64,000 bases of DNA, taken from Cellulomonas sp. IC4_254 (GTDB lineage: Bacteria; Actinomycetota; Actinomycetes; Actinomycetales; Cellulomonadaceae). The stretch lies in the NCBI RefSeq assembly GCF_011603975.1, contig NZ_JAANNB010000001.1, positions 1 through 64,000 of the forward strand. The letters are read 5' to 3'. Below the pieces are notes generated by a model, which saw only the letters and a list, made by a program, of their open reading frames with translations, did no database searches and was not told the origin of the DNA. Position 1 is the first letter of the stretch. Every line of letters starts with the position of its first letter. The position numbers were made by a program, and so were the translations under genes. Positions 60,983-64,000 of this stretch are shown here, piece after piece.

Positions 60983-61014
60983 GCATCGTATCGAACACCT
61001 GTTCGATACGATGC
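60983..61014. promoter_or_regulatory. LexA (SOS) box inside a 32-bp perfect palindrome
   Basis: TCGAACACCTGTTCGA is a match to the actinobacterial/Gram-positive LexA box (CGAAC-N4-GTTCG). The symmetry extends beyond the box: GCATCGTATCGAACA (60983-60997) and TGTTCGATACGATGC (61000-61014) are perfect reverse complements around a CC centre. It lies 56 bases before the small gene at 60927. Confidence 0.85.
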
Positions 61015-61274
61015 ACCGCTCCGCTCCGCCTTAGCGCAAGCGGCGACAGGACCACGAGGGAGGGTGTCTCACCCGTGAGACAACCTCGCTGCACGCTTCG
61101 CCCCCGAGATCGCGGCAGAGATCTCGAGGCGATCGTCCGCGCCTGATGGCAAGACGATCACAACTCGCCGCGCGACCCACCCGCTCGACGAGCGCCGCCG
61201 CGCGGACTCGATCTGGCAACCTTGGCTCCGATGCGCTGGTGCATCAGGCACCACGCGAGAGCGAGGGAGTGCGC

Positions 61275-61505
61275 ATGGGCACGAACAGGAACGTCGTCCC
61301 CAATTCGTCCGGCAGATGGGACGTGACCGGAGCCGGTGAGCGACGCTCCGCACACACCGACACGCAGGCCGAGGCGATCGCCCGGGCCAAGGAGATCGTG
61401 CACAACGCCGGCGGCGGCGAGGTCACCATCCACGGCCGAGACGGCCAGATCCGCGCCAAGGACACGGTGGACCCGGGCAACGACCCGCGGAACATCCCGG
61501 GCTGA
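61275..61505 (+). CDS. DUF2188 domain protein
   Basis: A 76-residue DUF2188 protein (a small alpha/beta fold with a conserved HV/NVVP start): NRNVVPNSSGRWDV, then TDTQAEAIARAKEIVHNAGG, GEVTIHGRDGQIRAKDTV and NDPRNIPG. Family function is unknown; members are common in phage and plasmid-like regions. ATG 61275 follows GAGGGAG. A deleted copy of the gene with both flanks lies at 47273. A hairpin 80 bases downstream is shared by both copies. Confidence 0.88.
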   Translation: MGTNRNVVPNSSGRWDVTGAGERRSAHTDTQAEAIARAKEIVHNAGGGEVTIHGRDGQIRAKDTVDPGNDPRNIPG

Positions 61506-61834: not shown

Positions 61835-62608
61835 CTAACGTAGTTCGGCCAAGCGGACAGCGAGGTGGCCGAAGTGTGCCGGGTCCTCCAACCTGCGCAC
61901 TTCGATCCCCGGAACGTTGCGCGCAAGGGATCCAAGTTTCGCGTGCCCGTAGGTACGCGAGTCGAATGTGGGCTCGGTGTTGGCGATGTACGCACCGACC
62001 GTCGCCAGATAGGCCCAGCCGTCCTCGTCCGCGGAAGCCGAAATCGCCGCCTCCAGCAACGGGAGGGCGGCCACCGGGTCGAGCCGGACCGGTTCAACAC
62101 CCGCAGTGGTGCCAGACCCACGCTCGTGCTCTAAATTGCTGTCAGGGGCCGTTGCCGGAACCGCCGCCGGTGTTTCGCCGTCCCCGGGAAGCAAATCGAG
62201 GTAGGTGAACCGGTCGCAGGCATTCGCGAACGCACCAGGCGTGTGTCGCGCTCCGATGCCGTAGACCCGTCGACCAGACTCGCGGAGACGCACAGCGAGG
62301 CGAGTGAAGTCACTGTCACTGGAGACGATGCAAAAGACGTTGACGTTGCCTGCGTAGAGCAAGTCCATCGCGTCGATGATGAGGGAAGAGTCGGTAGCAT
62401 TCTTACCAGCGACATAGGCGAACTGCTGCACCGGCTGGATGGCGTGTCGAGTCAGCTCGTTCTTCCACCCGTTGAGGTGGGGTCGAGTCCAGTCACCGTA
62501 TCCGCGCTTCACGCTCAGCGTTCCGTAGCGCGCGGTCTCGGCGAGGACTCCCCTGACCTGATCACGCGAGACGTTGTCGCAGTCGATCAGCACGGCGACG
62601 TGATCCAT
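61835..62608 (-). CDS. NYN-domain RNase-like protein with C-terminal LOTUS (OST-HTH) domain
   Basis: A 257-residue protein. The N-terminal NYN/LabA (PIN-like) domain (about 1-140) has the acidic site residues in VLIDCDNVS, TDSSLIIDAMDLLYAG and CIVSSDSDFTRLA, and would cut or bind RNA using Mg ions. The C-terminal ~80 residues (DPVAALPLLEAAI to VRRLEDPAHFG; ADEDGWAYLATVGAYI inside) have the LOTUS/OST-HTH pattern, which binds RNA (G-quadruplex or dsRNA in other systems). I start at ATG 62608 because AAAGGA precedes it; the frame continues upstream without a better site. NYN-LOTUS proteins are widespread in bacteria but of unclear role. An inverted repeat lies at 62715. Confidence 0.88.
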   Translation of the reverse strand: MDHVAVLIDCDNVSRDQVRGVLAETARYGTLSVKRGYGDWTRPHLNGWKNELTRHAIQPVQQFAYVAGKNATDSSLIIDAMDLLYAGNVNVFCIVSSDSDFTRLAVRLRESGRRVYGIGARHTPGAFANACDRFTYLDLLPGDGETPAAVPATAPDSNLEHERGSGTTAGVEPVRLDPVAALPLLEAAISASADEDGWAYLATVGAYIANTEPTFDSRTYGHAKLGSLARNVPGIEVRRLEDPAHFGHLAVRLAELR

Positions 62609-62714
62609 GACGGTCCTTTGCTCGGGCGACGGTGTTGGGCGACGTCGTGAGCGTGCCATGAACGAACGACCTCTCGCGCGCTTCGAGGGGCCGTTCACCA
62701 GGTTGCCCACAACT

Positions 62715-62734
62715 GATACGCCTGTCGGCGTATC
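62715..62734. promoter_or_regulatory. Inverted repeat before the NYN-LOTUS gene
   Basis: GATACGCC (62715-62722) and GGCGTATC (62727-62734) form a perfect 8-bp inverted repeat with a 4-base centre, about 110 bases before the gene start. It could be an operator or a weak hairpin. Confidence 0.35.
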
Positions 62735-62832
62735 CATCGCAGTGACGACTCGCTGGCGAGCACCGTCTCGACCCTCGATCTTGCGGTTGGCGCGGGCGAC
62801 GAGACGGTAGCAACGGACGCGACTGACGAGTC

Positions 62833-63159
62833 GTGAGCCAGCCCAGGCTCACTCCGTGCGCCTTCTTCCCGCACGACCTCGGCGGACACCGGCTACTGGT
62901 GCTCGACCTCGCCCGAGCACTCGGCATCGTCCTGTGCTCCGCACCCGGCCGCCCCTGTGGCGCCACCGGGAGTGCCGGCACCGCCGCCTACAGCCCCGAA
63001 CAGATCGCGGCGACACGGGAAGCCGTCCGCGGGATCATCGCCGACGCCGGGATGCCGCTGCCGTGCTTCTGCAATGACACAACGGTGGCCCAGTCGAACT
63101 CATGCCCACCGTTCCGCCACCTCCCGACGACAGGCACGGAGACGCCGCCAGCCGGGTGA
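62833..63159 (+). CDS. Hypothetical protein
   Basis: Possible 108-residue protein from GTG 62833, not recognised. It contains FFPHDLGGHRLLVLDLARAL, a Cys-bearing stretch (LCSAPGRPCGATGS), YSPEQIAATREAVRGIIADA, and CFCNDTT, suggesting a metal-binding or structural Cys set (five Cys in all). There is no strong ribosome site. It precedes the kinase/PurA-like gene by about 115 bases on the same strand. Confidence 0.4.
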   Translation: MSQPRLTPCAFFPHDLGGHRLLVLDLARALGIVLCSAPGRPCGATGSAGTAAYSPEQIAATREAVRGIIADAGMPLPCFCNDTTVAQSNSCPPFRHLPTTGTETPPAG

Positions 63160-63275
63160 AATCAGGACTAATCACGTCGCGATGACACATCGATGCGGCC
63201 TCGTACTGGAACCTTGCCTCAGGCACGAGCGCTCCCTCGACCGACGGGGCCGCACCCGTCGACCTCGGAGGACTC

Positions 63276-64000
63276 GTGGACATCGTCGTCGCACTGTCCG
63301 GCGCCATCGCCGTAGGTAAGAGCACCGTCGCATCGAAGCTCGTTGACCGGTGGGGTGGGACCGTCGTCAAGACTCGCGACGCCCTTGTCGACCTCGCGAG
63401 CAAGCGAGGCGTCGACCTGACCGACCGCCGCGCGATGCAGGCGTTCGGCGACGTTCTCGATAGGGAGACCGCGGGGCGCTGGGTCAGCGATGCTGCGCAC
63501 GCCCACGACGGTGACGACTCTCGCCTCCTCATCGTCGACGCCGTGCGAATCCGCGAGCAGATCGACGAACTGAGGGTGTCGTTCGGGCGTCGACTCGTTC
63601 ACGTCCACCTCGTTGCCGCCGACCGCTCGGTCCTGGCAGAGCGGTACCGGGAGCGACGTCGCGACTCCGTGGCTGAGCTGGCGTCGTACGAGATGCTCGC
63701 CGAGAACTCAACCGAGGCGAACATCGACGAGCTCGGCATGATCGCTGACGTCGTACTGGACACCCACCGCAACACGATCGAGGACATCGTCATCCGGTGC
63801 GCGGCCCGGCTGGGCCTGCTTCCCGCCCTTACCGCCCCACTCGTCGACGTCCTCGTCGGAGGCCAGTTCGGTTCCGAAGGCAAGGGGAACATCGCCTACC
63901 ACCTCGCGCCCGAGTACGGCGTCCTCGTGCGAGTCGGGGGACCGAACGCAGGACACAAGGTCCGCCACGACGGCTCCGTCCTGACCCACCGCACCCTGCC
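63276..64000 (+). CDS. P-loop kinase fused to adenylosuccinate-synthetase-like (PurA/PurZ-like) enzyme, 3' end outside the window
   Basis: 241 codons are visible and the gene runs off the edge. Residues 1-180 form a nucleotide-kinase-like P-loop domain: Walker A SGAIAVGKSTVASKL (8-22), a LIVDAVRIREQID Walker B-like strand and a lid-like Arg cluster (ERYRERRRD, 122-130). After a short linker (LLPALTAPLVD), residues 190-241 begin an adenylosuccinate-synthetase fold: VLVGGQFGSEGKGN (192-205) equals the PurA GTP/IMP loop GAQWGDEGKGK, and GGPNAGHKV (221-229) equals GGNNAGHTV with the catalytic His227. The catalytic Asp of PurA is Ser200 here. GTG 63276 follows GGAGG. This is not the housekeeping purA; it looks like a specialised nucleotide-modifying enzyme. 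Confidence 0.8.
   Translation, partial: MDIVVALSGAIAVGKSTVASKLVDRWGGTVVKTRDALVDLASKRGVDLTDRRAMQAFGDVLDRETAGRWVSDAAHAHDGDDSRLLIVDAVRIREQIDELRVSFGRRLVHVHLVAADRSVLAERYRERRRDSVAELASYEMLAENSTEANIDELGMIADVVLDTHRNTIEDIVIRCAARLGLLPALTAPLVDVLVGGQFGSEGKGNIAYHLAPEYGVLVRVGGPNAGHKVRHDGSVLTHRTL

Follow-up and report, generated by a model that had tools for sequence, protein, structure and literature searches.

What does an enzyme of the PurZ kind do in a bacterium? The accessible part of a 2026 survey presents PurZ as an enzyme of phages and lists four archaeal relatives (PMC12884076), and the window (the whole stretch analysed, 64,000 nucleotides of Cellulomonas sp. IC4_254) runs at its end into a gene that a preliminary description took for a nucleotide-kinase-like P-loop domain fused to a domain resembling adenylosuccinate synthetase (PurA), with a PurZ-like active site. 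The contig extends to 73387 and shares its numbering with the window, which ends at 64000. On the + strand, the gene starts with a GTG codon at 63276, preceded by GGAGGA (63267..63272, +) as probable ribosome-binding site, and ends at 64910, so that 63276..64000 of it lies in the window and the complete product has 544 aa. The in-window part matched the AAA_17/AAA_18 and Adenylsucc_synt profiles; the completed protein matched AAA_17 at residues 9-130 and PF00709 (Adenylsucc_synt) with 158 bits (E 3.7e-46), and the fusion stands as first described. The N-terminal, adenylate-kinase-like P-loop domain covers about residues 1-189 (63276..63842, +). In its P-loop, SGAIAVGKS (residues 8-16, 63297..63323, +), S8, G9, G14 and K15 are invariant in 11/11 aligned fusions, and a profile built from 28 kinase domains found adenylate-kinase-like proteins as its best match (SSO1041, E 3e-12). 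The PurZ-type domain takes up residues 190-530, its first part lying at 63843..64000 (+) and the remainder past the window end. The motifs GGQFGSEGKG and GGPNAGHK read as had been reported: Ser200 (codon 63873..63875, +) occupies the position of PurA Asp13, the catalytic Asp, and the conserved catalytic His belongs to NAGH (residues 224-227, 63945..63956, +). Residues 190-530 cover positions 3-334 of the 337 of the archaeal-type PurA model NF003295, nearly end to end, and the C-terminal synthetase fold is therefore complete, which answers the earlier concern that the unseen part might lack it. The host's own PurA is a separate gene on contig C92 (598 bits, motif GTQWGDEGKG, with the Asp kept), so the fusion is not the only adenylosuccinate synthetase of its genome, and all 22 other fusion genomes tested (22/22) likewise carry an ordinary PurA in addition.

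The nature of the synthetase domain was examined in an alignment of 173 rows, for which the viral sequences were drawn from the best 80 of 235 matches (52 of these are in the alignment; L111, which repeats L010, was excluded, and the others were set aside manually) and the near copies L021 and L023 were omitted, as they were from the neighbour clustering. The Asp13 position is Ser in 88 of the 89 rows labelled bacterial fusions, a group that includes one viral row (L010) and whose other row, L099, is gapped there; among genome matches this invariance is partly selected, since the scan patterns contained GSEGKG or VGGPNAGH. The eight full-length plasmid fusions, retrieved by plain tblastn without a pattern favouring Ser, also have Ser (8/8). 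The same residue is found in 9/9 viral fusions, two of them identical, in 43/43 viral rows taken as kinase-less (four of which, L112, L117, L142 and L164, have a stop elsewhere and were counted here though absent from the trees below), in 7/7 phage PurZ references and in a kinase-less protein of Sinorhizobium medicae. Asp is found in 22/22 housekeeping PurA, in the host's own PurA and in the protein of a 7-deazapurine cluster. That loss of this Asp marks PurZ had been put forward in the preliminary description, and the accessible text of PMC12884076 agrees: each of the 147 phage PurZ in its tree has Ser in place of Asp13, which is 99% conserved in the PurA group. Pro408 and Ile409 are kept in 89/89 and 9/9 fusions and in 42 and 43, respectively, of the 43 kinase-less viral rows; the 22 housekeeping PurA have Thr or other residues at these positions. 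Insert columns 413-414 are filled as in PurZ, with single exceptions among viral rows, and are gaps in the 22 housekeeping PurA. According to the parts of PMC12884076 and PMC8342488 at hand, PurZ carries an insertion after a conserved Val; in the alignment, the fusion has this loop insertion following the R-V pair, and its PIRVAGNSG is identical to chain 7vf6 when the two are aligned pairwise.

Trees were computed from 81 and 68 rows of the 173-row set, leaving out L099 (ORF split in two) and the viral rows with stops (L112, L117, L142, L164). After removal of the trait columns, the rows bearing Ser formed a single clade (99/96) and so did the fusions (100/100), with the viral fusions nested among the bacterial ones. 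The fusion grouped with phage PurZ and not with PurA in both trees, whose rows do not include archaeal PurA of the NF003295 type (L252, which reads GFFGDEGKG). Among solved structures, the nearest chains to the synthetase domain were the Pyrococcus PurA 2d7u and 5k7x (191 bits). They were followed by 7vf6 (120 bits) and by 6fko and its like (116 bits); 6fko is the PurZ of phiVC8 (PMC8342488, accessible part). Chain 7odx, named PurZ, scored 104 bits, with one other PurA ranking between 6fko and 7odx. On the curated models, the fusion scored 191.6 bits against the PurZ model NF038379, below the 300-bit cut-off; its highest curated score, 287 bits, was with NF003295, below the cut-off of 368. Because the curated cut-off is missed, we call the domain PurZ-type and not a filed member of PurZ: the fusions are a separate PurZ-type subclade. 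The PurZ-type assignment itself is well supported by the pocket residues, the PurZ-specific loop and the tree made without those columns, and upholds the PurZ-like active site proposed at the outset. By homology, the domain quite probably uses dGMP.

A search for the same fusion and its neighbours, as had been suggested, found 413 stretches of a genome collection (GTDB) encoding a relative. The best 80 were retained, all spanning both domains; they bear 15 phylum labels, three archaeal, although many of these loci come from metagenome bins and the labels, archaeal above all, can be wrong. Closer to the host the gene is rare, with matches in 3/148 near relatives and in 1/394 genomes of the class, the host itself. 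Among plasmid records, 8/19 covered at least 80% of the fusion. This patchy occurrence fits an accessory gene.

The partners of the fusion lie past the window end, where the host has, in this order and on the + strand, a DUF7002 gene (64914-65576), a PRA-PH/MazG-like gene (65655-66167) and a DUF3644 (PDC-S19) gene (66186-67373). DUF7002 is the constant companion: it was present in 79 of the best 80 genome loci of 413, in 8/8 plasmid loci and in 3/10 viral loci, and the sequence of the one genome locus without it, L095, stops 247 bases past the fusion. In 77/80 loci it follows the fusion on the same strand, and in 72/80 it is at most 60 bases away, the commonest gap being -4 (22 loci) when measured to the start codon nearest the fusion stop. 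The departures were L027-L029, where an opposite-strand MazG gene lies between, or overlaps, the fusion and DUF7002, L051 (DUF7002 4.8 kb away) and L075 (DUF7002 on the opposite strand). A 517-aa ORF in L021, overlapping the MazG gene on the opposite strand, was set aside as a shadow. We also noted a 243-aa family without a Pfam match near DUF7002 (L058 10314-11045 and 8 other loci, all titled Chloroflexota or archaea). A promoter and terminator scan of the cassette returned nothing.

We then considered what DUF7002 might be. Its model built from 72 sequences reached a pLDDT of 96.9 (compare 35 for the single-sequence model). The first Foldseek match of this model was DarT1 (E 1e-4), and a second structural aligner gave Z 10.8 for the same pair (159 aligned, rmsd 3.0). 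The next six structural matches were also DarT (Z 7.9-9.4), and those below Z 8 were mostly other proteins of the ADP-ribosyltransferase fold. At the sequence level, DarT1 was the sole match, a weak one (E 0.052), when PDB sequences were searched with a profile; with 6 DarT rows, hhalign gave Prob 76 for the N-terminal part only, and Pfam DarT (PF14487) did not match at E 0.01, where only the DUF7002 family did. R55, R72, D73, N147, G149, F164 and E187 are invariant in 72/72 DUF7002 rows, and H15 is found in 70/72, the other two being gaps. H15, R55, R72, D73, N147 and E187 may correspond, judged by order only, to the catalytic DarT1 residues H17, R52, D54, N104 and E152. We regard it as well supported by the modelled structure that DUF7002 has an ADP-ribosyltransferase fold closest to DarT1, and it is quite likely to be an active ADP-ribosyltransferase.

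Other partners are shared by part of the loci. The most frequent is a 450-aa protein which, in the one member tested, joins an M78 (ImmA/IrrE) peptidase domain to a C-terminal macrodomain (PDB match 5e3b, E 2.7e-20), and whose HExxH motif is conserved across 59 aligned rows (H 59, E 58, H 59). It was matched in 62/80 genome loci, with no match in 18/80. Counted by position, its gene precedes the fusion on the same strand by at most 300 bases in 60 genome and 2 viral loci (62 together), two of these matches being short or cut. A profile search of the host cassette revealed no macrodomain partner. MazG was present in 15/80 genome loci and not found in 65/80, a deoxynucleoside kinase followed DUF7002 in 3/80, and PurB was present in 5/80. 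All five genomes of the PurB loci (5/5) carry a further, more distant PurB-like lyase elsewhere (30-32% identity); of 3 genomes lacking PurB in the operon, two yielded a single weak match each with the same PurB query and the third yielded nothing. An HD protein and a 452-aa protein accompany the fusion in 3/80 genome loci and 8/8 plasmid loci; the HD proteins, seen in Hyphomicrobiales, resemble YfbR below the Pfam cut-off. One pair of each was compared with the phage enzymes: no real resemblance emerged between MazG and S-2L MazZ (E 0.091), and between the HD protein and phiVC8 DatZ it was slight (39 residues, E 0.001). Equating MazG with MazZ and HD with DatZ was rejected, the pairwise comparison backing the superfamily level only.

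The cassette appears to be mobile, a near-identical block being present in different flanks. A block of 4.54 kb (63032-67574, of which 63032..64000 is in the window) is shared with a Cellulomonas hominis contig at 95.9% identity, and the flanks had no match in the 13.4 kb compared except one 96-base piece (78%). The block's coding sequence has a lower GC content (67.5%) than the window (72.1%). Around the cassette, repeats consisted only of short or probably chance pairs, bar one hairpin outside it, a perfect 22+22 inverted repeat without spacer after a DUF2188 gene (L005 8825-8868). That gene (L005 8517-8798, Pfam) is downstream of the cassette, and a look-alike was recognized by eye upstream, at 61146-61505 of the window. 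The genes annotated beside the host cassette encode NYN-LOTUS, DUF2071, DUF2188 and M20 peptidase proteins. The NYN-LOTUS gene (61835-62737) is itself accessory, as had been thought: it is outside the common cassette and occurs in 1/60 genomes of the genus, the host's own; DUF2071, looked for in a separate search, is in 25/60. Further upstream, a perfect SOS-box-like site, CGAAC-N4-GTTCG, lies at 60992-61005; with at most one mismatch allowed, the window holds 7 such matches against 3.6 expected.

Defence genes are found near several copies. About 1.5 kb from the block, the C. hominis contig encodes a presumably Gabija-like pair of an OLD-TOPRIM ATPase with a UvrD helicase (L022 964-4727); L022 is here equated with L023, with which it agrees in length and position. 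An ORF between that pair and the cassette (L022 5303-6166) appears transposase-like by eye. Within 7 kb on either side, AbiE, SIR2, AbiJ-NTD4, UvrD or VapBC genes were found near the fusion in 4/6 annotated plasmid loci, and no clear defence gene in the other two (2/6). At E 1e-20, the PADLOC models yielded 83 families, which overlap, from 110 of the 158 eligible ORFs flanking 22 fusion loci, compared with 22 families from 110 control ORFs (of 175, from 19 of the same genomes), 17 of the latter being PD-T4-6 models and the rest mad, MkoA and kinase. The 25 families listed, most of them single-member, include type I/II restriction-modification, PDC-S19, PDC-S39, PifA, capP and PD-T4-6, and two of the test ORFs (PDC-S19) are DUF3644 relatives of the host cassette's own gene. 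The enrichment of defence families around the fusion loci is thus modest.

Taken together, these data lead us to propose that the fusion and DUF7002 form the two-gene core of a mobile anti-phage system that makes a 2-aminoadenine deoxynucleotide and couples it to a DarT-like effector, a reading to which we give a probability of roughly 0.4. The substrates, the order of the steps, the coupling and the role in defence we infer from homology and gene context. MazG would supply dGMP from dGTP, and the PurZ domain would convert dGMP and aspartate into 2-amino-dAMP-succinate; PurB, either the host's or the extra copy of some loci, would release dZMP, the 2-aminoadenine deoxynucleotide, which the kinase domain would phosphorylate. 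This chain, coupled to a DarT-like transferase, is the best-supported one, its steps being predicted from homology. Upon alteration of the deoxynucleotide pool by a phage, the product would license the transferase as substrate or activator. It could serve as substrate because DarT1 attacks the guanine 2-amino group, to whose N2 it joins ADP-ribose (PMC11543638, accessible part), and 2-aminoadenine keeps that group. NAD-dependent modification by DUF7002 would then stop phage replication, and the M78-macrodomain protein of many other loci may sense or erase the ADP-ribosyl mark. From its context, the operon is probably anti-phage; a role of the nucleotide in gating or feeding the transferase is somewhat less likely than not.

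The proposed core resembles three known systems in part. With PurZ/PurZ0 of the Z-DNA phages (phiVC8, S-2L, Wayne), whose DNA carries 2-aminoadenine instead of adenine, the fusion shares Ser for Asp13, the examined pocket residues, the PIRV(x)GxSG loop and the clade; it differs in having a kinase, in being cellular and paired with DUF7002, in forming its own subclade below the curated cut-off, and in that the genes annotated next to the host fusion include no DNA polymerase. As in DarTG1/DarTG2, there is a DarT fold and, in many loci, a macrodomain protein, but DUF7002 has no Pfam DarT match, the core includes a nucleotide-making enzyme, and the macrodomain, which forms one protein with an M78 peptidase, is missing from the host cassette. 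Since the host cassette lacks a macrodomain and 18/80 loci gave no match, a plain toxin-antitoxin reading fails there. Kongming-type defence uses a modified deoxynucleotide as signal. It also combines nucleotide-metabolism enzymes with an NAD-using partner, as here; the enzymes are different and so, by prediction, is the nucleotide.

Other explanations have to be weighed against this coupled system. An unlikely one, though the strongest of them, is defence by nucleotide depletion: the kinase-PurZ protein, with MazG or HD where present, would drain dGTP/dGMP and starve the phage, and DUF7002 would be an independent, co-travelling toxin of the DarT type. The MazG and HD hydrolases of part of the loci and the 18/80 genome loci with no match to the M78-macrodomain protein are consistent with it; however, where an additional PurB-like lyase and a kinase join the synthetase, as in some loci, the set seems suited to forming a product and not merely to consuming one, and the tight linkage of the fusion to DUF7002 over 15 phyla argues for joint action. 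We consider it somewhat less likely again that the enzyme instead acts on IMP, GMP or some modified nucleotide to make a ribonucleotide signal activating DUF7002. The top curated-model score, with an archaeal-type PurA, and the fusions' own clade would suit such a change, but Ser, the examined pocket residues and the PurZ loop are all kept and deoxynucleotide enzymes stand beside some loci.

The fusion could also be a domesticated or passing gene of Z-DNA phages, as a prophage remnant or for counter-defence. It does occur on viral contigs and is nested there several times among bacterial copies, and a family A DNA polymerase was nearby in 4/4 of the contigs with a polymerase-like ORF that were scanned (L103, L106, L108, L147). 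Nevertheless, DUF7002 accompanies 79/80 cellular copies and only 3/10 viral ones, and the genes annotated beside the host cassette are not phage structural genes. We hold this origin to be improbable. The viral contigs bearing the fusion with no DUF7002 match (L103, L105, L106, L108, L110, L147, L010) are candidate Z-DNA phages. On L010 the fusion adjoins a DUF4406 protein whose C-terminus resembles MazG by eye, and L105 has a DUF1937 protein. Viral contig L107 (7977-10872) has a further kinase-like gene, free-standing (AAA_18, below the Pfam cut-off), immediately ahead of the fusion, which DUF7002 follows. The kinase-less PurZ-type protein with Ser on a Sinorhizobium medicae plasmid (L019 6296-9057) is preceded by a YfbR-like protein and followed by a dCTP-deaminase-like one, both weak and below the Pfam cut-off; it may represent a second arrangement of PurZ in cells.

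Biosynthesis of a nucleoside natural product is very improbable. It is suggested by a Rhizobium leguminosarum plasmid (L020 6369-14717), where a PurA-like gene belongs to a 7-deazapurine-type cluster with FolE, QueE, QueC, nitrile hydratase, PurB and IMP dehydrogenase, and by an ABC-transporter-ATPase-like neighbour cluster (by eye) in 7 clustered loci at varied distances. The Rhizobium protein, however, keeps the Asp and lies outside the Ser clade, and no further biosynthetic gene was evident by eye among the 45 commonest neighbour clusters. Finally, a housekeeping PurA role has the common fold in its favour and virtually no chance of being right, as it is ruled out by the separate PurA of the host and of 22/22 other fusion genomes.

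The coupled system can be extended into a bolder, rather doubtful picture, in which cells too make 2-aminoadenine deoxynucleotides. Upon infection, the Z-nucleotide would be produced by a mobile immune operon of wide occurrence; the DarT-like enzyme would either ADP-ribosylate the 2-amino group of this nucleotide, whether free or built into new phage DNA, or be activated by it; the M78-macrodomain protein would be both reader and eraser, and the synthetase gene would be exchanged between Z-phages and the operon. The literature searched, mostly open-access and of partial coverage, contained no report of a cellular PurZ in defence, nor of DUF7002. With a cellular, kinase-fused PurZ-type clade tied to a DarT-like transferase in 15 phyla, 2-aminoadenine chemistry would reach into cells, and DUF7002 would gain a fold and a probable activity. 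Such a clade would also define a testable candidate defence system and suggest how Z-phages could have acquired, or passed on, their key gene.
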